Virus record (IMG/VR): IMGVR_UViG_3300034759_000313
Location: 1-32,370 of that record
Length of the DNA stretch: 32,370 nt
Origin: a virus
Strand: one strand, 5' to 3'
Shown here: positions 2,177-32,370 of the stretch, piece by piece
Layout: each line of letters begins with the position of its first letter
How positions within the stretch are numbered: position 1 is the stretch's first letter
The notes under the pieces: model-generated
What the model was told of the DNA's origin: nothing
Seen by the model: the letters and a program-made list of their open reading frames with translations, nothing else
Databases searched by the model: none
Translations under genes and position numbers: made by a program

Positions 2177-3559
2177 ATGTATAAAAATGTACCAGACCAA
2201 AGAGTTTTTATTGCTGCCATCTCAATCTCTGATGGCAGTCCGAAGACCGAAGGTGTTGAATTTTACATAGCGAAAGATACCGGTGTCCAAACTCCGCCGG
2301 CTGGCGAAGTAGTGCACGGCGGCAACGGTCATTGGAGGATTACGTTCACCCAAGAGGAGACGAACACTGATGTCTTAAGTCTTTTGTGGACTGGGCCGGA
2401 TGTCGTAACAAATTGCATTACGTTGTATCCAGTCGCGAAAAAGGTGCAAGACTATCAAACTGAATTAAGTCTTCTTAATCGGCTCGATGTGCGAGTGTCC
2501 ACAAGAGCAGATGCGAATTCTTTGTATGGGTTAACCCAAATCTACACGGCTCAGCGGGCGGCGTACCTTGACAACCTTGCCGTCGGCGGTCTGGTGGCAT
2601 CACAGGCTGATGTTTCAGCAATCACGCAGGCTCAGAGGGTGCGGATCGTTGTACCGCGGATGATGGAGAGGCCGGACGAAGGCAGTGTGGCCTATCAAAT
2701 TTGGATACATAGTTATGATAATCTACACAAAGCAAAAGACCTTGATACTCTCCCGATTATCGCTGCGTCCAATAACGCAGGGCAGGATCGTTCAATTAAT
2801 CTTGGCACAGTCGTTAAGCCAACCGGCACAACAGGCCTCTATTATGTAGAGTATACCGTGGCTGCCGATCACGCGATCGAGGGTCTCATCTTTTTGGTTA
2901 ACGCAACGGACGGCGGCATAACGACAGCATACAGCGAGGCCTCGATTGTCGTTGATACAACAGCAGTAGACTTTACCGCCGCAGACCGTCTCAAACTTGA
3001 CACACTATATAACAAGCGACCGACCGGCAGCATCGCAGATCAAGATACACTTAATGGTGTAGGCTATGAGTTGGCACAGCATCGCAATAATTATACCGCC
3101 GAGCGGGCGGCCAAACTGGACAATCTGGACGCGACCATTACATCGCGTCTGGCGGCGACCGGTTACACCGCGCCTCCGACGGTTGACGCGATTGTCGCGG
3201 GTGTTGAGTCCGAGCAAGGCAAACTACACGAGACGCTTGTCAGGGCCGAAAATACCGATGAACTGATGCGCGAACTGACCGAGGTTGATGGGGCCGGCAA
3301 TCATCGTCTGACCGCAAAAGCACTGGAGCAGGCGCCGGTTGGTGAATCGGTCTGGTCGACCGAACAGCGAGATGCGGTGCTGGAGATGGCCTCCACACGA
3401 TTGGTGACACAATCGCGGATTAATACAACCACTACGCCGTGGCGGCTTGAGCTGCTGGTCGACCAGACGATTGTTAAGGCCTATGAGTGCTATGATATCA
3501 ACGGCGCGCCAATTACAAGTACGGATGCAATCATTGCTAAGTATGTGGAGGTTGTCTGA
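2177..3559 (+). CDS. Fibre- or baseplate-like structural protein
   Basis: 460 aa. The ATG at 2177 follows ATAGGAGCGTAAA. The N-terminal ~95 residues look like a compact beta domain. Later come two tail-fibre-type segments: AQRAAYLDNLAVGG near residue 125 and AERAAKLDNLDATITSRLA near residue 315, a motif common in phage tail and baseplate proteins. Residues ~155-270 form a second beta-rich region. The C-terminal ~50 residues read WRLELLVDQTIVKAYECYD, like the trimerising end of fibre proteins. The stop overlaps the next start (TGATG). Its place before the connector genes, instead of after the tape measure, is unusual. Assignment as a fibre is moderately sure; which virion part carries it is unknown. 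Confidence 0.85.
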   Translation: MYKNVPDQRVFIAAISISDGSPKTEGVEFYIAKDTGVQTPPAGEVVHGGNGHWRITFTQEETNTDVLSLLWTGPDVVTNCITLYPVAKKVQDYQTELSLLNRLDVRVSTRADANSLYGLTQIYTAQRAAYLDNLAVGGLVASQADVSAITQAQRVRIVVPRMMERPDEGSVAYQIWIHSYDNLHKAKDLDTLPIIAASNNAGQDRSINLGTVVKPTGTTGLYYVEYTVAADHAIEGLIFLVNATDGGITTAYSEASIVVDTTAVDFTAADRLKLDTLYNKRPTGSIADQDTLNGVGYELAQHRNNYTAERAAKLDNLDATITSRLAATGYTAPPTVDAIVAGVESEQGKLHETLVRAENTDELMRELTEVDGAGNHRLTAKALEQAPVGESVWSTEQRDAVLEMASTRLVTQSRINTTTTPWRLELLVDQTIVKAYECYDINGAPITSTDAIIAKYVEVV

Positions 3560-12004: not shown

Positions 12005-12028
12005 TACGCTTTGAAAGGAAAACGAATT

Positions 12029-12886
12029 ATGAAATGGAAAGAGATCAAAAATTGGGAGCGTGTGGCCGGCTGGTACATTGAGCCGGCCACAGAGACGAAA
12101 TACTGTTACGTTGGCGACGACGTGCAGCTGGGCGACGATGTCTGGCTGGGCGCCGGCGTCTGGCTGGGAAACGACGTGCAACTGGGCGCCCGCGTCCGGC
12201 TGGGCGCCCGCGTCCGGCTGGGCAACGGCGTCCGGCTGGGCGACGACGTGCAACTGGGCGCCGGCGTCTGGCTGGGAAACGACGTGCAACTGGGCGCCAG
12301 CGTCCGGTTGGGCAACTTCGTCCGGCTGGGCGACTCCGTCCGGTTGGGCAACTCCGTCCGGCTGGGCGACGACGTGCAACTGGGCGCCGGCGTCTGGCTG
12401 GGCGACGGCGTCCGGCTGGGCCACGACGTCCGGCTGGGAAACGACGTGCAGCTGGGCGCCAGCGTCCGGCTGGGCGACGGCGTCCGGCTGGGCTCCCGCG
12501 TCTGTCTGGGAAACGACGTGCAGCTGGGCGCCCGCGTCCGGCTGGGAAACGACGTGCAGCTGGGCGCCAGCGTCCGGTTGGGCAACTCCGTCCGGCTGGG
12601 CGACGACGTTCGGCTGGGCGACTTCGTCCGGCTGGGCGACGACGTCCAAGTGCCCGTGTATCAGTCATGGTCGTTTGCCATCCACTGGCACGCTCCGGGG
12701 ACGATTCGAGCGGGTTGTATCATCGGGCCGTTTGACCGGTGCCTCGCCAACGTCCGGCAGGTTGCCGCCGAGCACGGCTATCCGCCGGACGAGCAGGAGC
12801 GATATGCGGGATTTATACGGCAAATTATTGAGTGGGAAAAGTTAATGGGCGATAAGGTCGGTTTCGCCCGACTCGATGCCACATAA
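12029..12886 (+). CDS. Hexapeptide-repeat (left-handed beta-helix) protein
   Basis: 285 aa. I chose the ATG at 12029 because GAAAGGAAAA lies just upstream; a TTG at 12011 would start inside that site. After ~29 N-terminal residues come 30 tandem hexapeptides of pattern x-x-V-x-L-G, enough for ten three-sided coils of a left-handed beta-helix. The C-terminal ~75 residues (FAIHWHAPGTIRAGCIIG, then a helical YPPDEQERYAGFIRQIIEW) resemble a cap seen in phage hexapeptide proteins. Classical members are acyltransferases, but the catalytic His and loops of those enzymes were not seen, and this repeat is unusually uniform. Structural or binding use is more likely than catalysis. The function is unknown. 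Confidence 0.85.
   Translation: MKWKEIKNWERVAGWYIEPATETKYCYVGDDVQLGDDVWLGAGVWLGNDVQLGARVRLGARVRLGNGVRLGDDVQLGAGVWLGNDVQLGASVRLGNFVRLGDSVRLGNSVRLGDDVQLGAGVWLGDGVRLGHDVRLGNDVQLGASVRLGDGVRLGSRVCLGNDVQLGARVRLGNDVQLGASVRLGNSVRLGDDVRLGDFVRLGDDVQVPVYQSWSFAIHWHAPGTIRAGCIIGPFDRCLANVRQVAAEHGYPPDEQERYAGFIRQIIEWEKLMGDKVGFARLDAT
12116..12655 (+). repeat. 30 tandem 18-bp units (coding minisatellite)
   Basis: Thirty consecutive 18-base units encode xxVxLG. Many are near-identical at the DNA level (for example GTCCGGCTGGGC and GACGACGTGCAACTGGGC recur), and higher-order blocks such as DDVQLG-AGVWLG-NDVQLG repeat. This points to recent unequal exchange or slippage. The other five frames are also open here because of the periodicity; those ORFs are shadows. 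Confidence 0.95.
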
Positions 12887-12967: not shown

Positions 12968-12999
12968 TGAACAAATAGCCACGGCGTATGGGTTATAAT
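12968..12999 (+). promoter_or_regulatory. Possible promoter before the Csx16-like gene
   Basis: A perfect -10 box TATAAT lies at 12994-12999. The nearest -35-like sequence, TTGAAC (12968-12973), is 20 bases away, longer than the usual 17. Transcription would start near 13006, giving a short leader with AAGGAG just before the ATG at 13025. The -10 is strong but the -35 is weak. Confidence 0.45.
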
Positions 13000-13024: not shown

Positions 13025-13477
13025 ATGAACAACATCATCGTTGTGAGTCGGCACAAAAATGCTATCCGGTTCATCGCTGACCAACTGATGGCAGCGATGA
13101 AACACAACCCCCGTATTATGCGGGGGCACCCCTACCTCACTTATTACGAGGCGGGGGAAGATTACATTGATTTTTTCACGGAGGAGGGTGGCTATATTGT
13201 TGAGTCTGTCCCTCTCTATCGATACGATGTTAACTCTGATATTGTCAAGGGCAAGGTAGTCATCGGCAATCTGCCGTTGTCCTTGGCCGCACAATGCGAC
13301 CGCTATTATGCCGTTGAGCACGACAGCGGACGAGCGGATGATGGCACGGAGCAATTTGTGCTACGGGCTTACGAGATTGAATATGTACCAGCGATTTGCC
13401 CGGATTGTTTTTCGGTTGACATCAAAATGCGCGAAAATGGCATTGAATGCCTCCTATGTGGTGCTTATTACGGTTAA
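13025..13477 (+). CDS. Csx16-like protein with C-terminal zinc ribbon (candidate ring nuclease / anti-CRISPR)
   Basis: 150 aa. The N-terminus MNNIIVVSRHKNAIRFI and the later VKGKVVIGNLPLSLAAQCDR match the two signature regions of the Csx16 (VVA1548) family: a first strand ending in [ST]RH followed by a helix, and G-x-x-V-x-G-x-L-P-x-x-L-A-A. Csx16 proteins accompany type III CRISPR systems and are thought to be ring nucleases that degrade cyclic oligoadenylate; diverged relatives occur in phages. Here an extra ~35 residues (about 26-75) separate the two regions, and the end adds CPDC ... CLLC, a zinc ribbon not usual for the family. The ATG at 13025 follows AAGGAG. A terminator follows the gene, so it may be transcribed alone. 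The fold call is from motif reading; activity is inferred. Confidence 0.85.
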   Translation: MNNIIVVSRHKNAIRFIADQLMAAMKHNPRIMRGHPYLTYYEAGEDYIDFFTEEGGYIVESVPLYRYDVNSDIVKGKVVIGNLPLSLAAQCDRYYAVEHDSGRADDGTEQFVLRAYEIEYVPAICPDCFSVDIKMRENGIECLLCGAYYG

Positions 13478-13493
13478 TTGTTTTTTACCCCTG

Positions 13494-13524
13494 GCCCTCG
13501 TCGCTCGTTGCGGCGGGGGCTTTT
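13494..13524 (+). terminator. Rho-independent terminator
   Basis: An 11-bp stem, 13494-13504 with 13510-13520 (two G-U pairs), encloses loop TCGTT and is followed by TTTT. It separates the Csx16-like gene from the SSB gene. Confidence 0.65.
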
Positions 13525-13555
13525 GGTGGAATGAAAATCAAAGAAAGGAACGATT

Positions 13556-13990
13556 ATGGCCAATTTGAACAAAGTGTTGTTAATGGGCAATCTGACCCGC
13601 GACCCGCAATTGTCGTATCTGCCCAGCCAGACGGCGGTTGTTGATTTTGGGCTGGCGGTCAATCGCCGCTACAAAAAACAGGACGGTACAATGGCCGATG
13701 AACCCTGTTTTGTCGATTGTCGGATGTTTGGCAAACGCGCCGAAACGATCAATCGCTACTTCAAAAAGGGCGAGCCGATCTTTGTCGAAGGGCGGCTTCA
13801 ATACGACCAGTGGCAGGCGCCGGACGGGTCGCGAAAAAGCCGTCTTCGCGTGTTTGTCGAAAATTTTGAGTTCATCGGCAGGGCCTCCGGCGAGCAAAAC
13901 ACCAGCAGTAGCGGCTTTGGCGGCGCGCCTATCACTGACAGGCAGGATGTGCTTGCTAATGCCGGCGATGATGACGATATCCCGTTTTGA
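13556..13990 (+). CDS. ssb: Single-stranded DNA-binding protein
   Basis: 144 aa. It starts MANLNKVLLMGNLTRDPQL, the classical bacterial SSB beginning; the OB-fold spans about residues 1-110 with FVDCRMFGKRAETINRYFKK and GEPIFVEGRLQYDQW in the expected places. A flexible linker leads to the acidic tip DDDDIPF, which binds partner proteins such as polymerase, helicase and recombination factors. The length is slightly shorter than E. coli SSB. It coats single-stranded DNA in phage replication and recombination. The ATG at 13556 follows AAAGGAACG. Confidence 0.96.
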   Translation: MANLNKVLLMGNLTRDPQLSYLPSQTAVVDFGLAVNRRYKKQDGTMADEPCFVDCRMFGKRAETINRYFKKGEPIFVEGRLQYDQWQAPDGSRKSRLRVFVENFEFIGRASGEQNTSSSGFGGAPITDRQDVLANAGDDDDIPF

Positions 13991-14014: not shown

Positions 14015-14179
14015 ATGCTTAAATACACGTGCTTTTACCATCCAGACAGGCCGCCCTTTGTGGATGTCGGGAAAAATGGGAAACATTTTTTTATTTGTTT
14101 GGAGTGTTATAAAAAACAGGAACGTGAAAAATGGAAAAAGGATTGTGATAATGCTGAAAAAACTATGGAGACTCATTAA
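14015..14179 (+). CDS. Small zinc-binding protein, 54 aa
   Basis: The ATG at 14015 follows AAGGAGAGCA. The sequence has YTCFYHPDRPPFV and FFICLECYKKQE, i.e. C-x2-H and C-x2-C spaced like a zinc knuckle, followed by a charged Lys/Glu helix. No function is known. Its 3' end overlaps the start of the next ORF in another frame. Confidence 0.6.
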   Translation: MLKYTCFYHPDRPPFVDVGKNGKHFFICLECYKKQEREKWKKDCDNAEKTMETH

Positions 14180-14261
14180 GTCAATCGTATACGCGATGAC
14201 CTTTGTTTTTATGCCGAGGGATTATCCAGAGGCGCGCGTGAAAATCAAAAACGAAGTCTGA
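14151..14261 (+). CDS. Small peptide, 36 aa, possibly membrane-associated
   Basis: The ATG at 14151 lies 10 bases after AAAAAGGAT. The peptide has a basic amphipathic N-terminus (MLKKLWRLIKSIVYAMTFVF) followed by a short charged tail. It could insert in or lie along the membrane. It overlaps the preceding zinc-binding gene by 29 bases in another frame. No family is known. Confidence 0.5.
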   Translation: MLKKLWRLIKSIVYAMTFVFMPRDYPEARVKIKNEV

Positions 14262-14275
14262 ACACGAGGTGTAAA

Positions 14276-14572
14276 ATGACTGAAAGATTAGAACATTTTG
14301 GTTTCTCGTGCCGGCTGCCTGAGCCGGATATCATAGGCGATTGTGCTGCGTGTGGCGGAGCCGTCTATCGCGACGAGGAAATCTATTGCGAGACCTGCGG
14401 CAAGCAAATCCACGAGGGTTGTCAGGCAACGTGTTTTTGCGGGCACGATGGATGCAGGGGATGTATGCTGTATGACGCCGATAACGATATGTGGTTTTGC
14501 GATACGGCGGATAACGGAGAGCTGGAAGAGTCCGAATGTCGGAATGATTTTTTGAAAGGGGACTCAAAATGA
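14276..14572 (+). CDS. Cysteine-rich zinc-finger protein
   Basis: 98 aa with about a dozen cysteines. CAACGGAVY, then YCETCGKQIHEGCQATCFCG and CRGCMLYD form two or three likely zinc sites similar to a treble-clef or B-box arrangement; DMWFCDTADN follows. Such small phage proteins often bind nucleic acid or host proteins, but no function can be assigned. Its stop overlaps the next start (ATGA). Confidence 0.75.
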   Translation: MTERLEHFGFSCRLPEPDIIGDCAACGGAVYRDEEIYCETCGKQIHEGCQATCFCGHDGCRGCMLYDADNDMWFCDTADNGELEESECRNDFLKGDSK

Positions 14573-18501: not shown

Positions 18502-19233
18502 ATGACTGTGATTTATGAACCCAAGGGCAAGGCCAGAGAATACGCGGAGTTGGCTTGCAATCTGTTTACCGGCTGTCGGCATCGCTGCCGATATTGTTAT
18601 TGTCCGGCGATTATGCGTCAGTCTTTAGAGGAGTGGGCGGCAGACCCCGCCCCTCGGAAAGATATCCTTGAGAAACTCGACCGCGAGGCGTCAAGGCTGG
18701 CCGGCTGTGATAAAGAGTTGCTGTTTTCTTTTATGAGCGACCCCTACCAGAGTCAGGCGGCGGCCGATTATACACGTCAGGCCTTATTGATTTGCGAGAC
18801 ATACGAGTTTCACAAGGTCAACGTGCTGACAAAAAATGGCGGGCTTGCCCAGCAGGATTTTGACATCCTTGCCAGACATCCAGGTTGGAAATTTGGCAGC
18901 ACAATTATTTTTGACGCCGAGTCCTTAAGGGAGTATTGGGAGCCCGGCGCATCGAGCATCGAAAGCCGTATTTTGGCCGTCCAGGAGGCCCACAGACGCG
19001 GTATCTACACCTGGATATCCGTAGAGCCGGTAGTGGAGCCAAAGGCGGCCCTGCGGCTTATCAGGCGGCTTAAACAGTTTGTGAATTTTTGGAAAATCGG
19101 GAAATTGAATTACAGACCCGACGTCGAGGCGACGATTAACTGGGCACGATTTCTGGTCGACGTTGAGGACGAGTTGGCCGGCTGTAAATACTACATCAAA
19201 AAAGACCTTATCGCAGCGGCAAGACAGAAATGA
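18502..19233 (+). CDS. Radical SAM protein (spore-photoproduct-lyase-like family)
   Basis: 243 aa. NLFTGCRHRCRYCYCPAI holds the C-x3-C-x2-C cluster motif (about residues 25-32) for the [4Fe-4S] that cleaves S-adenosylmethionine. The start YEPKGKAREYAELACNLFTG is typical of phage and bacterial SPL-like radical SAM proteins. LLFSFMSDPYQ and KVNVLTKNGG fit the barrel strands of that family. The substrate is unknown; nucleic-acid modification or repair is possible. It lies between lysis and replication genes with a ribosome site AAAGGAT. A radical SAM enzyme suggests an anaerobic or low-oxygen host (inference). Confidence 0.88.
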   Translation: MTVIYEPKGKAREYAELACNLFTGCRHRCRYCYCPAIMRQSLEEWAADPAPRKDILEKLDREASRLAGCDKELLFSFMSDPYQSQAAADYTRQALLICETYEFHKVNVLTKNGGLAQQDFDILARHPGWKFGSTIIFDAESLREYWEPGASSIESRILAVQEAHRRGIYTWISVEPVVEPKAALRLIRRLKQFVNFWKIGKLNYRPDVEATINWARFLVDVEDELAGCKYYIKKDLIAAARQK

Positions 19234-23836: not shown

Positions 23837-24322
23837 GTGAAAATAAATCAGGCGGAATTTGACCGATTGGTAATGTCCTTGCTCTCTGGCACGAGCCCTG
23901 AAAAGGTCGTCGAGCATTGTCAGGCAAATTTAGGCCTCACTGCCAAAGAGGCCCTGAAGGTTGTCAACGAGGCCAGAAAGAAAATCACCCTCGCGGCGGA
24001 TTTTGTGCGGGATGAGCAATTGGGCACGGCCATCTCGCGTATCAACAATATCTACTCCAGGGCGATACGCGAGCTGGATATCAAGACGGCATTGCAGGCC
24101 CAGCGGGAATTAAACAAACTGATGGGGCTTTACAGCGCCGATGCCGGAGGAACTGGTTCGGACGGGATGGGGGAGGTGTATCGCGAAAAGCTGGAATTGA
24201 TTAAGCAGTATATTTTACCGCTTGAATTGGTCGACGAAAAATATCCCATCGAAGAGCACGTCAGAGTAGCGGCGGAAATCGTGCGTGAAAAAAAATACAA
24301 CACAAGCATATCAGACCGCTAA
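23837..24322 (+). CDS. Terminase small subunit
   Basis: 161 aa with GTG start after GGGAATGCGGC. The N-terminal helices (QAEFDRLVMSLLSGTSPEKV, then LTAKEALKVVNEARKKI) look like the DNA-binding region, followed by a central helical oligomerisation part (ISRINNIYSRAIRELDIKTA, QRELNKLMGLY) and a C-terminal segment that would meet the large subunit. It recognises the packaging site. It overlaps the large subunit gene by 38 bases in another frame. The family was recognised by size, fold pattern and position. Confidence 0.82.
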   Translation: MKINQAEFDRLVMSLLSGTSPEKVVEHCQANLGLTAKEALKVVNEARKKITLAADFVRDEQLGTAISRINNIYSRAIRELDIKTALQAQRELNKLMGLYSADAGGTGSDGMGEVYREKLELIKQYILPLELVDEKYPIEEHVRVAAEIVREKKYNTSISDR

Positions 24323-26363
24323 AGACAGGGCGCGTAAGCGCAGTCTTTGGGTAACGCGGGCGGGGCAGGACATCGGGCCTATACCACCCGTCAAAGATAT
24401 TGAGCGGCGGATGATGGGCGAAAAATCGTTCCGGTTTTTTTGCGAGACGTATTTTCCGCAGTTATTCCGCCTGGCCTGGTCGGATGACCACCTGCGGGTG
24501 ATTCAGAAAATCGAATCCGTCGTTGTTTTTCACAATACCTTTGCCGTGGCAATGCCGCGCGGCAGCGGCAAAACAACATTAAGTCTTGCGGCCGTCATCT
24601 GGGCCGTCCTGACGGGCAAGCACGAGTTTGTTTATCTGCTGGCCTCGGCGGACGACCAGGCGATTAAATTGCTCGGAAACATCAAAAATCAATTGTCCGC
24701 CAACCCATTACTGCTTGAGGATTATCCCGAATCCATCTATCCCATCCAGCGACTGGAAAATGAGGCTCGACGCTGCACAGGTCAAAAATGCCTTGGGGCC
24801 CCCACGCATATCAAGTGGGGCGTTAACGAGATTGTGCTGCCGACCATCCCCAACAGCAAGTCGTCTGGAGCCGTGGTACGGGCCTGCGGGCTTGCGGGCA
24901 ATTTCCGCGGGGCGATGGTTGTCCGGCCAAACGGGCAATCGATACGCCCTACACTGGTAGTCGCTGACGACCCGCAGAACGACGCATCTGCAAGGTCGAT
25001 GGTACAGACCGCAGAGCGTCTGTCTATCCTTAATGGCACCATCATCGGGCTGGCCGGCCCCGACCAGAAAACCGGTGTCATCGTGCCGTGTACGGTGATT
25101 CAGCGGGGTGATTTAGCCGACCAGATTTTAGACCATAAGCGATTTCCCGCCTGGCGCGGGGAGCGAACGAAGATGATTTATCAATGGCCGAAAAACGCGG
25201 ATTTATGGGCCGAGTATTGCCGATTGCGGGAACAGTCCATACGCGATAATGGGCACGGGCAAGAGGCCACGGAATTTTATCGCAGAAACAGAGAGGCGAT
25301 GGACGAGGGGGCTGTTGTGGCCTGGCCTGCCCGTTTTTCGCCGGAGGCCGGTGAAATCAGTGCCCTGCAGGCGGTATATAATCTGCTGCTGGATTACAAG
25401 GAGCAAGGGTTTGCCGCCGAGTTTCAGAATGAGCCGCTTAGTGAGACGTTAGACGAAGAGTCGCTGCTGACGGCGGAGGATGTCTGGAGCAAAGCCAACG
25501 GAAGACCTCGCGGACACGTCCCGCCGCAATGCACAAAATTAACGGCGTTTATTGATGTCCACGACAATCTGTTGTTTTATACGGTGTGCTGCTGGGAAGA
25601 TAATTTTACGGGGTATGTGGTGGATTACGGCACCTTCCCCAAACAAAATCGGCGCCATTTTACGCTGGCAAACGCGACGCATACTCTCGGACAGATGTTT
25701 CCGGAGGCGGGGCGGGACGGGGCGATTTTAGCGGGGCTGGAGTCCCTTGTTAAGACCCTGCTGGAGACTAATTATCAGCGGGGGCAGGGCTATATGCAGA
25801 TTGATCGGCTGCTTGTTGACATGGGGTATAAAGATAAGATTGTCGCGGCGGTTAAATTCCGTGCGGGCGGCTCGACGATGATGCTCTCTAAGGGTGTTGG
25901 TATACGAGCGGGCAACCGCCCCATCTCGCAATACCAGCGCAAGGTGGGGTGGAAACTTGGATATCACTGGTACATCCCCAACGTCGCACGGACGCAGGAA
26001 CACCCGCATATGGTGATTGATACAAATTTTTGGAAATCATTTTTACACGACCGATTTTTAACGCCGCCTGGGGATGCGGCATCGTTGACGTTGTTTGGAA
26101 AGCCGGAGCAGCACGAGTTGTTTGCCGCGCATATCGCTGACAGCGAGACGTGGGTGATGACACACGGCCAGGGGCGCGACGTCAAGGAGTGGCGTCTCAA
26201 ACCATCCAAGCCCGATAACCACTGGCTGGACTGTCTTGTTGGATGTGCCGCGGCGGCCAGTGAACAGGGAATTGCTCTTGAAGGCCAACAGATAATGGCG
26301 TCGCGACAAAAGAAACGCCTGAAAATATCCGAATTGCAATCCAAAAAAAGGAGTGCCCGATGA
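24285..26363 (+). CDS. Terminase large subunit
   Basis: 692 aa with GTG start at 24285 inside the small-subunit gene. Walker A is AMPRGSGKTT (~89-98), with LLASADDQAIKLL after it and Walker B LVVADDPQND (~224-233). The C-terminal RNase H-like nuclease has TAFIDVHDN, RLLVDMGYKDK and a late HWLDCLVG aspartate. It pumps DNA into the prohead and cuts concatemers. It is longer than average, comparable to large gpA-type terminases. The stop overlaps the next ATG (ATGA). Confidence 0.95.
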   Translation: MKKNTTQAYQTAKDRARKRSLWVTRAGQDIGPIPPVKDIERRMMGEKSFRFFCETYFPQLFRLAWSDDHLRVIQKIESVVVFHNTFAVAMPRGSGKTTLSLAAVIWAVLTGKHEFVYLLASADDQAIKLLGNIKNQLSANPLLLEDYPESIYPIQRLENEARRCTGQKCLGAPTHIKWGVNEIVLPTIPNSKSSGAVVRACGLAGNFRGAMVVRPNGQSIRPTLVVADDPQNDASARSMVQTAERLSILNGTIIGLAGPDQKTGVIVPCTVIQRGDLADQILDHKRFPAWRGERTKMIYQWPKNADLWAEYCRLREQSIRDNGHGQEATEFYRRNREAMDEGAVVAWPARFSPEAGEISALQAVYNLLLDYKEQGFAAEFQNEPLSETLDEESLLTAEDVWSKANGRPRGHVPPQCTKLTAFIDVHDNLLFYTVCCWEDNFTGYVVDYGTFPKQNRRHFTLANATHTLGQMFPEAGRDGAILAGLESLVKTLLETNYQRGQGYMQIDRLLVDMGYKDKIVAAVKFRAGGSTMMLSKGVGIRAGNRPISQYQRKVGWKLGYHWYIPNVARTQEHPHMVIDTNFWKSFLHDRFLTPPGDAASLTLFGKPEQHELFAAHIADSETWVMTHGQGRDVKEWRLKPSKPDNHWLDCLVGCAAAASEQGIALEGQQIMASRQKKRLKISELQSKKRSAR

Positions 26364-26602
26364 AGACGGAAGAATTTGAACAGATTGTTAAGGTCAAACC
26401 GGAGACGGCGTTAGCGGGTTTGATGGTCAAGCATATTGTGGCTCTTTATGATTTTATTCGCGAACACGAATCGGGCGTCAGGCCTTCTCGTTCTTATGCG
26501 TTTTGGGACGAGAAGATAGGGGATATACAAGCCTACCTATGTCTTCTTGACGCGATGGTTCTTGAGCGTTTGGCAAAACAAACAGATGGAACGATTCAGT
26601 AA
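26360..26602 (+). CDS. Small protein, copy 1 of a duplicated pair flanking the methyltransferase
   Basis: 80 aa. From residue 22 it reads MVKHIVALYDFIREHES, then WDEKIGDIQAYLCLLDAMVL, almost the same as the protein at 27352. The first 21 residues have no counterpart there. No known domain; it is helical and acidic. DNA similarity to 27352-27552 is also high. It overlaps the terminase stop (ATGA). Confidence 0.8.
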   Translation: MKTEEFEQIVKVKPETALAGLMVKHIVALYDFIREHESGVRPSRSYAFWDEKIGDIQAYLCLLDAMVLERLAKQTDGTIQ

Positions 26603-26624
26603 CAAAATTGAGGTATTATTTCTG

Positions 26625-27365
26625 GTGAGAATGCTTGACCTATTTAGCGGTATCGGCGGCTTTGCATATGCCGCCAAGCAGATTTGGGGCGATGATTTGG
26701 AGATTGCCGCGTTTTGCGAAAGAGATGAATTTTGCCGAAAAGTGCTTAAAAAAAGATTTCCGAGCGTCCCGATAATCGACGACATACACGAGATGAATGG
26801 AAAAAATTATGGAACAGTTGACCTTATTTGCGGCGGATTCCCGTGTCAGCCAGTGTCTGTCGCCGGGAAACAAATGGGCCAGGCGGATGACCGCTGGCTC
26901 TGGCCTGAAATGTTCCGCGTTTGTCGAGACGCAAGGCCCCGTTGGGTCATTGCTGAAAATGTGCCTGGCCTCATTGCGATGGAACTCGACGGCGTGCTTG
27001 CTGACTTGGAAAGCGAAGGCTACCAGACAGGGACGCTTGTACTTCCGGCTTGCGGCGTCGGCGCCCCGCACCGACGAGAACGGGTTTGGATTGTGGGCCA
27101 CGCCGGCGGCGGCGGTAGCGCGGGAGTTTTACCCGACACCAACAACACAGGACGCCAAAAACAACGGCAGCAAAAGCCAGCAGGCGAGGAACACACCGCC
27201 GCTGAACGCTGTTGCCGGTGGCCCGCTGAACCCGAATTGGGTAGAGTGGCTTATGGGGTACCCCGCAGGGTGGACAGACTTAGAGCGTTAGGCAACGCCA
27301 TCGTACCGCAGGTGGCAATGGAGATATTCCGCGCAATACGGAAGATTGATTATGGTCAAGCATAG
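26625..27365 (+). CDS. Cytosine-5 DNA methyltransferase (Dcm-type)
   Basis: 246 aa. I prefer GTG 26625 because GAGGT lies 10 bases upstream; ATG 26631 is an alternative. Motif I is MLDLFSGIGGFAYA, motif IV GGFPCQPVSVAGK with the catalytic Cys of P-C-Q, motif VI AENVPGL, motif VIII RRERVWIVG, and motif X RVDRLRALGNAIVPQVA. It transfers methyl groups to cytosine C5, probably against host restriction. It is short: the target-recognition region between motifs VIII and X is only ~55 residues and Gly/Gln/Lys-rich. A second apparent gene occupies another frame here (26797-27291). Paralogous small genes flank it. Confidence 0.93.
   Translation: MRMLDLFSGIGGFAYAAKQIWGDDLEIAAFCERDEFCRKVLKKRFPSVPIIDDIHEMNGKNYGTVDLICGGFPCQPVSVAGKQMGQADDRWLWPEMFRVCRDARPRWVIAENVPGLIAMELDGVLADLESEGYQTGTLVLPACGVGAPHRRERVWIVGHAGGGGSAGVLPDTNNTGRQKQRQQKPAGEEHTAAERCCRWPAEPELGRVAYGVPRRVDRLRALGNAIVPQVAMEIFRAIRKIDYGQA
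26797..27291 (+). CDS. Overprinted ORF inside the methyltransferase gene (methyltransferase-associated family)
   Basis: 164 aa, +1 frame relative to the methyltransferase and wholly inside it. A start at ATG 26809 gives MEQLTLFAADSRVSQCLS; ATG 26797 adds four residues. The sequence is not shadow-like: RRMTAGSGLKCSAFV, SLRWNSTACLLTWKAKAT, GLWATPAAAVAREFYPTPTT, and WVEWLMGYPAGWTDLE are strings I know from phage proteins annotated next to, or as part of, cytosine methyltransferases. Both frames therefore look conserved. It could assist target recognition, or be a cryptic second product. A strong ribosome site is lacking. Confidence 0.6.
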   Translation: MEKIMEQLTLFAADSRVSQCLSPGNKWARRMTAGSGLKCSAFVETQGPVGSLLKMCLASLRWNSTACLLTWKAKATRQGRLYFRLAASAPRTDENGFGLWATPAAAVAREFYPTPTTQDAKNNGSKSQQARNTPPLNAVAGGPLNPNWVEWLMGYPAGWTDLER

Positions 27366-31454: not shown

Positions 31455-31790
31455 ATGGCAACAGCACAATTTTTGTATGATGGCAATACGATTAACTATA
31501 CGCCTGTCAGTGATGTCAGCGCGGGCGATGTCATTGTGCAGGGCGATTTGATTGGTATCGCCAAGCACGATATCGCGGCCGGCCAGTTGGGTGCGTTAGC
31601 AGTGGTTGGTATTTTTTCCGTGCCGAAAGCAGCGGACGAAATCACCGCCGGTGCAAAACTCTATTGGAACTCGGCAACAAAGCAAGTGGCCTTGGTTCCG
31701 GGCACAGAACCCATTCTTCCTTATCTTGGCAAGGCCGTGCGTGCGGCTGTGTCGGCGGATACGACCGTCCAGGTGCGATTGGAGCAATAG
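31455..31790 (+). CDS. DUF2190-type capsid decoration protein
   Basis: 111 aa. DGNTINYTPVSDVSAGDVIV, then DLIGIAKHDIAAGQLG, GIFSVPKA and AGAKLYWNS fit the DUF2190 family, small beta-barrel proteins lying next to the capsid gene that decorate and stabilise heads. The ATG follows GAAAGGATAAAAA, a strong ribosome site fitting high expression. Confidence 0.9.
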   Translation: MATAQFLYDGNTINYTPVSDVSAGDVIVQGDLIGIAKHDIAAGQLGALAVVGIFSVPKAADEITAGAKLYWNSATKQVALVPGTEPILPYLGKAVRAAVSADTTVQVRLEQ

Positions 31791-31819
31791 GCATAATCGT
31801 CTCCCCTCTCCTTACTACG

Positions 31820-31847
31820 TGCGGCAGGATTGCCCTGTCCTGCCGCA
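31820..31847 (+). terminator. 10-bp hairpin after the decoration gene (possible partial terminator)
   Basis: TGCGGCAGGA (31820-31829) pairs perfectly with TCCTGCCGCA (31838-31847), loop TTGCCCTG, followed by TATAATTTTA. The T content is too low for a strong terminator, so it may only reduce downstream transcription or protect capsid mRNA. Confidence 0.5.
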
Positions 31848-31856
31848 TATAATTTT

Positions 31857-32024
31857 ATGGCGGAATTGGGAAAACATATTGCAGCCATTGAGCTGGAGCT
31901 GGCTCGGATGACAAAGGACGGACATTTTGCCGAGCCTGAGATTGATGTGATGATGAGACGGCTGGATGTCTGGCTGCGGCGTATGCAGGAAATCAACCGA
32001 AAACGATTAGACACCTTTGGATGA
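31857..32024 (+). CDS. Small helical protein, 55 aa
   Basis: ATG 31857 lies 9 bases after the hairpin and has no clear ribosome site. The sequence is helical and charged (ELGKHIAAIELELARMTKD, then RRLDVWLRRMQEINRKRL). It overlaps the next gene (ATGA). No domain known. Confidence 0.65.
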   Translation: MAELGKHIAAIELELARMTKDGHFAEPEIDVMMRRLDVWLRRMQEINRKRLDTFG

Positions 32025-32335
32025 CAATGGCAAGCAGCGGCTATCAAATCGACCGTAAAGAATTCAGCGACGCGCTGGAACGGATTAATGCAAAACTGGA
32101 CGGTGTGAAAGAGGATGTCTCGTCCGTTAAGGAAGAAATGGTTGCGATTAAAACAACACTAAAATTAACCCCCATCCCCAAACAGCCGTGTCCGCAGCTG
32201 GAAAAACATCTTGAACTGCACGAGTCGATTAAAATGATTTGGCTGCGTGCGGTGGTCAGTTCCGTTGTCAGTTCCGTGGCGGCATCGGTCACCGCTGCAT
32301 TAACGGCGATATGGTTTTTTTTGCGAGACAAATGA
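32021..32335 (+). CDS. Coiled-coil protein with C-terminal membrane segment
   Basis: 104 aa. Residues ~10-45 are a heptad-type coiled coil (ALERINAKLDGVKEDVSSVK and onward). Residues ~75-100 are a hydrophobic helix (VVSSVVSSVAASVTAALTAI) ending WFFLRDK. This topology resembles XhlA-type lysis proteins or small holin-like proteins, but could be a membrane-anchored virion accessory. It overlaps both neighbours by ATGA, so it is co-translated with the secreted dockerin-like gene across the join. Confidence 0.8.
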   Translation: MTMASSGYQIDRKEFSDALERINAKLDGVKEDVSSVKEEMVAIKTTLKLTPIPKQPCPQLEKHLELHESIKMIWLRAVVSSVVSSVAASVTAALTAIWFFLRDK

Positions 32336-32370
32336 CCCTGTTACCTTACATCCTGTTAAGCGTGATTGCA
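32332..32370 (+). CDS. Start of the secreted dockerin-like protein that continues at position 1
   Basis: ATG 32332 overlaps the stop of the coiled-coil gene (ATGA). It gives MTLLPYILLSVIA, the signal peptide of the protein at 1-434. Bases 32336-32370 repeat 1-35. Confidence 0.9.
   Translation, partial: MTLLPYILLSVIA
32336..32370. repeat. 35-bp direct terminal repeat (right copy)
   Basis: Identical to bases 1-35; see the left copy. Confidence 0.95.

Follow-up and report, generated by a model that had tools for sequence, protein, structure and literature searches.

The open reading frame at positions 13025–13477 (plus strand; P0001) of the virus record IMGVR_UViG_3300034759_000313 encodes a Csx16-like protein of 150 aa. 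It lies within the 32.4-kb stretch of DNA analyzed here (32,370 nucleotides, hereafter the window), which also encodes a terminase, a portal protein, and a single-strand DNA-binding protein (SSB). The frame opens with ATG, is preceded a few bases upstream of position 13025 by an AGGAG ribosome-binding site, and has a coding-like GC content by codon position (0.57/0.34/0.55); it is a genuine gene. A reading made from the sequence alone (hereafter the sequence-only reading) had assigned the gene its own promoter-like -10 element and terminator, and both assignments stand in part. The hexamer TATAAT occurs exactly at 12994–12999 (plus strand), but a consensus scan detected no -35/-10 pair in front of the Csx16-like frame. 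Downstream, a strong terminator-like hairpin at 13493–13521 (plus strand) lies in a stretch (13478–13530) that folds at -30.2 kcal/mol (z -4.9; 0/200 shuffles as good), but it ends with a T run of just four. Independent transcription of the Csx16-like gene is plausible.

Directly upstream of this gene, positions 12011–12886 encode a hexapeptide-repeat (left-handed beta-helix) protein (PF00132, E 7.8e-39; PHROG 5353, unknown function) containing many near-identical LGxxVxLG repeats. The next gene downstream encodes the SSB (13556–13990, plus strand; PF00436, E 2.2e-32), with YqaJ and RecT genes further on. Positions 14015–14572, downstream of the SSB, encode two small proteins of 54 and 98 aa, both containing cysteines, the longer of which shows a weak match to the PHD finger (E 0.0006, below the cut-off). 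A radical SAM protein is encoded in the early region at 18502–19233 (PF04055, E 4.5e-8, with a weaker match to DUF5131), and a DNA methyltransferase gene (26547–27365; PHROG 363, E 5.9e-78) is located between the portal gene and the gene for the terminase large subunit used for host placement (24285–26363, plus strand; PHROG 38, E 5.6e-34). Among the window proteins scanned with profiles (8 + 10, in overlapping sets), no CRISPR gene was found besides the Csx16-like one.

The protein can be divided into a Csx16-like core, an insertion, and a C-terminal appendage. The first part of the core (residues 4–27; 13034–13105, plus strand) comprises strand 1, the SRHxxA motif, and helix 1, and the remainder (residues 55–116; 13187–13372, plus strand), delimited from the structural model and the alignment, contains the second family motif at residues 79–89 and a degenerate RGxE region at 103–110. 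Both signatures named in the sequence-only reading are present in the translated frame (VVSRHKNA, residues 6–13; VIGNLPLSLAA), corresponding to the SRHxxA and VIGxLPxxLAA motifs of the Csx16 family in the right order. The protein retains R9 and H10, which are kept in 13/15 and 14/15 of the family members compared, respectively, as well as G81, L83, and P84 of the family. Two further positions are lost or moved: the histidine of the HLD motif (12/15 members) is Y67, and the arginine of RGxE (14/15 members) is D106 in one alignment and R103 in another, the region reading DGTE or RADD; this histidine and RGxE are conserved among the 15 members compared, which does not imply that they define the family.

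The insertion (residues 28–54; 13106–13186, plus strand) is predicted from the model and the profile segments to form a beta-hairpin (strands 38–43 and 47–52). It had been described as a new insert of ~35 residues; the insert is present, with an alignment-dependent length of 27–35 residues, but its position is not unique, as one viral member of the family (L022) carries a shorter insert at the same place after helix 1. The appendage (residues 125–145; 13397–13459, plus strand) had been read as a single C-x2-C pair. Its cysteines are real but form two pairs (C125/C128 and C142/C145), giving the complete four-cysteine ribbon motif CPDC-x13-CLLC, which presumably binds zinc. The two CxxC knuckles and the small beta unit of a zinc ribbon are thus found in the sequence and in the predicted strands (133–136 and 139–142). 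Two CxxC motifs within the last 50 residues arose in 23 of 20,000 shuffled versions of its sequence, and the proposal that this unit is new relative to the family holds for the 15 Csx16 sequences compared, none of which contains CxxC.

Profile searches point to the Csx16 family across three libraries. The frame matches Pfam PF09652 (Cas_VVA1548, Csx16) with an E value of 8.7e-5 and 23.1 bits (cut-off 25 bits), the PADLOC Csx16 profile with an E value of 1.1e-5, and TIGR02620 of NCBIfam with an E value of 0.0057 and 16.9 bits, for which the cut-off of 46.35 bits is far above. A better score for a different family, the outcome that would have spoken against the assignment, did not occur in any of these libraries (Pfam, NCBIfam, PADLOC); the ribbon families TransFacS4 (E 0.084) and TackOD1 (E 0.14) matched weakly. 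As a guard against chance and circularity, two test profiles were built without the window protein. The one constructed from six Csx16 proteins that had been obtained without the GNLP pattern scored 22.0 bits (E 1.8e-5), compared with 7.7 bits for the best of 2000 shuffles. The other, a 15-member profile from which a Csx16 broken by stops (L044) and a partial frame (L019, represented by its full form L062) were also excluded, scored 44.9 bits (E 1.2e-12; best shuffle 8.6 bits) and is partly biased, seven of its members having been found via the GNLP pattern; no other frame of the window exceeded 4.8 bits against it. When residues 28–54 were omitted in silico, two profile segments merged into one match of 47.4 bits. 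Pairwise BLASTP comparisons with viral relatives gave E values of 2e-10 and 3e-11 (single comparisons). Homology to Csx16, as proposed from the motifs, is therefore supported by the three libraries and by an independent profile tested against shuffles, at scores below the curated cut-offs, and sequence comparison identifies the protein as a divergent Csx16-like homolog in which helix 1 and strand 2 are separated by an insertion. It is not filed as Csx16 proper because the curated cut-offs were not reached; the viral member L022 likewise falls below the Pfam cut-off (22.4 bits).

The window protein was modeled as a monomer with AlphaFold2 from eight sequences (pLDDT 87.2, pTM 0.74). The model comprises a strand (4–7), a helix (11–27), the inserted hairpin (38–43/47–52), a strand (58–65), a short helix (71–74), a strand (78–81), a helix (85–88), two further strands (93–100 and 110–116), and the ribbon strands (133–136/139–142). 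In the model made likewise of a canonical Csx16 (pLDDT 92.4), the core strands follow one another in the same order, the hairpin and the ribbon are missing, and the last strand is preceded by an additional helix that is lost in the window protein. The five core strands of the window protein follow the order of the canonical model, and the Rossmann-type core that the sequence-only reading had led one to expect is thus predicted. Foldseek searches with this model returned no match at E <= 0.001 in either the PDB or BFVD; the ribbon gave short, high-probability matches in BFVD over 27 columns. With VIA-align, the best Z in the fold library was 3.5; SAVED-CHAT (Z 3.1, rmsd 3.1, 68 aligned) and Cad1-CARF (Z 2.5, rmsd 5.0, 81 aligned) were ranked equally in Z with unrelated Rossmann-type proteins, and no ring nuclease or CARF match reached Z 4. 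AcrIII-1 and Crn1 are absent from this match list, and their absence there does not exclude them. The canonical Csx16 control matched Sis0455 (Z 5.0, rmsd 3.6, 94 aligned), Sso2081 (Z 4.2, rmsd 3.3–3.5, 85–90 aligned), and AcrIII-1 (6scf; Z 4.0, rmsd 2.7, 71 aligned), with Crn1 also among its matches. Since serine resolvases, at Z 5, rank level with the ring nucleases in the list for canonical Csx16, fold matches alone are not functional evidence; those of the modeled window protein and of the control agree with a CARF-like core and prove no function.

No close relative of the window protein was found in the viral contigs, genome contigs, phages, and plasmids searched. The degenerate pattern VIG(N/K/T)LPxxLAA recovered 11 stretches from viral contigs, four of which were Csx16-like by reading; all four match PF09652 (three above the cut-off), and in two a terminase gene is located nearby. 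Among 32 genomic stretches with the pattern, four were real Csx16 (including the one broken by stops). The remaining stretches (7/11 viral and 28/32 genomic) were judged unrelated, nearly all of them lacking an upstream in-frame SRH/TRH-like motif. Other candidates were also rejected: locus L113 reads through as an unrelated frame, the match in Mycobacterium phage Phrappuccino (E 0.2) is a translated annotated gene without Csx16 motifs, and two distant YqaJ relatives (L005 and L006) gave no match to PF09652. When 392 planctomycete genomes were searched with a profile from a three-sequence alignment, two matches emerged: the known Csx16 of genome G281 and a match in G187 judged to be due to chance, its frame belonging to another protein type that we take to be ornithine carbamoyltransferase-like.

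The protein shares with Csx16 the ordered motifs, the predicted order of strands and helices, and the residues R9, H10, G81, and P84, but differs in its length (150 aa versus ~100 aa), its hairpin after helix 1, its four-cysteine ribbon, the loss of the last helix, the H-to-Y change in HLD, the eroded RGxE, and its scores below the curated cut-offs. The relatives L022 (G006), L062/L019 (G004), L020 (G005), and L024 (G007) resemble it in having VIG(N/T)LPxxLAA without the four-residue CARGARY-type spacer; unlike the window protein, they have no CxxC ribbon and all retain the RG of RGxE. The tailed Methanobacterium virus Drs3 likewise encodes a member of the Csx16 family (AXN53384.1, annotated as Cas_VVA1548), but this protein has 103 aa, neither insert nor ribbon, and an archaeal host. 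The survey by Hoikkala and colleagues detected Csx16 in just 2 phages among 28,114 genomes, reports the viral ring nucleases to be mainly AcrIII-1, and shows that Csx16 cleaves cyclic tetra-adenylate (cA4) but not cA6 in vitro (PMC12409355). Phage Csx16 as such is therefore already known. No report of a ribbon-bearing Csx16 appeared among the papers listed for Csx16, for zinc-ribbon or viral ring nucleases, and for planctomycete phages and type III CRISPR; those combining ring nucleases with zinc ribbons concern CoCoNuTs. The job proposed for the window protein, that of a phage enzyme removing cA4, would be shared with AcrIII-1/Crn2 (PMC12409355); the latter is a different protein family, and no sequence match to it was returned for the frame.

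The host was placed by comparing two phyla, Planctomycetota and Pseudomonadota, with phylum labels taken from record titles. Relatives of the window terminase at E <= 1e-10 occur in 60/392 Planctomycetota genomes, the best being full length at 51–53% identity, and in 29/299 Pseudomonadota genomes, where they are only partial (best 1.2e-19). Because strong relatives (E <= 1e-100) were found in 49/392 Planctomycetota genomes (hand count) versus 0/299 of the Pseudomonadota, the terminase comparison makes Planctomycetota the likely host phylum. The sequence-only reading had proposed examining candidate hosts for type III loci, and these exist in this phylum: the Cas10 palm domain occurs at E <= 1e-10 in 49/392 genomes (hand count), approximately one in eight, and at E <= 1e-5 in 65/392, the weak ones of which may be other GGDEF-like proteins. 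Strong Cas10 matches were present in 4 of the 49 genomes with a strong terminase relative (G036, G169, G231, and G273; hand tally), which is below the phylum rate. PF09652 was matched in one of the 392 genomes, G281, where a canonical Csx16 sits in a type III locus beside Cas10 palm, RAMP, and Cas6 genes.

Twenty planctomycete stretches that surround terminase relatives (several are short) share only packaging and head genes with the window, and the early region (the Csx16-like gene, SSB, YqaJ, and RecT) was not found in them. L003, the viral relative nearest to the window (terminase 69%), is a piece of 11.7 kb that lacks the early region; its capsid-side genes continue into homologs of window genes located at 3559 onward. 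This gene order suggests that the window (ends 1–434 and 31455–32370) may represent an almost complete, permuted genome opened between these two groups of genes. An identical repeat of 10–100 bases at the two window ends was not seen.

The reading favored here, with moderate confidence, is that the protein acts as an anti-type III CRISPR viral ring nuclease, lowering cA4 during infection, because it combines homology to Csx16 with a location in a phage and with the presence of type III systems in the likely host phylum; since Csx16 is a proven cA4 ring nuclease already reported from phages, an anti-type III role is plausible. A planctomycete phage would produce a small, CARF-like, Rossmann-type Csx16 relative that probably dimerizes, binds the cA4 made by the Cas10 of the host, and opens it into linear fragments, so that the type III CRISPR effectors would be switched off while the phage infects the cell. 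Of the added parts, the hairpin probably enlarges the sheet or a lid over the dimer or ligand, and the C-terminal ribbon probably stabilizes a core lacking the last helix or tethers the protein to a partner or nucleic acid. A more specific version, in which the ribbon and hairpin confer a new property, is considered quite unlikely. In that version the protein would do more than degrade free cA4: the ribbon would bring it to where cA4 is synthesized (the Cas10 complex or the RNA bound to that complex), or its ligand specificity would have changed, so that the viral ring nuclease would be either targeted or re-specified. Against a ring nuclease speak the scores below the Pfam and NCBIfam cut-offs, Y67, the uncertain RGxE, the lack of a strong fold match, the rarity of Csx16 in the sampled phylum (1/392), and the low share of strong Cas10 matches among genomes with a strong terminase relative (4/49).

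The changed motif residues, together with the lack of a strong fold match, are the reason why two other explanations stay in contention. The H67Y change and the erosion of RGxE would suit a protein whose putative catalytic positions have decayed and which sequesters a cyclic-nucleotide messenger (cA4 or another) while cleaving it inefficiently; this is possible, if on the unlikely side, given that the SRH pair (R9, H10) and G81/P84 are retained and that sequestration has been argued to be possibly fruitless at type III signal levels. The position of the gene directly before that for SSB, with YqaJ and RecT further on, suggests instead a Rossmann/zinc-ribbon protein repurposed outside CRISPR signaling, for example as a DNA-, RNA-, or protein-binding accessory of these genes. 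Ribbons are common in nucleic-acid proteins, and the ribbon of the window protein, with its weak TransFacS4 and TackOD1 matches, fits such a role; the statistical support for the family motifs kept in the core, and the hairpin between the Csx16-like gene and SSB, which suggests a separate unit, render it unlikely. Cellular canonical Csx16 sits within type III loci, and a ring nuclease might accordingly be carried as cargo that tunes cyclic-nucleotide defense for the host or against competing phages, but no other CRISPR gene appeared among the profile-scanned window proteins and cA4 degradation would aid this phage anyway, which leaves cargo a very improbable account.

If the protein is a viral ring nuclease, as favored here, its presence in a planctomycete phage would mean that this counter-defense reaches another phylum, and its ribbon and hairpin would illustrate viral remodeling of a host off-switch. 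Its changes at two conserved positions also make it a naturally occurring variant with which to find out which Csx16 residues cA4 cleavage needs. Two plasmid loci encountered during the survey show further arrangements of the family. On a plasmid of Allomeiothermus silvanus (L013, 589–1374), a 261-aa annotated Csx16 consists of two tandem Csx16-like domains and adjoins a type IV secretion gene, possibly representing a plasmid-borne double version. On the uncultured archaeon plasmid LC711081 (L108, 3253–4279), a gene annotated as a Zn finger protein directly precedes a Csx16 gene, a pair that recalls the joining of ribbon and Csx16-like core in the window protein.
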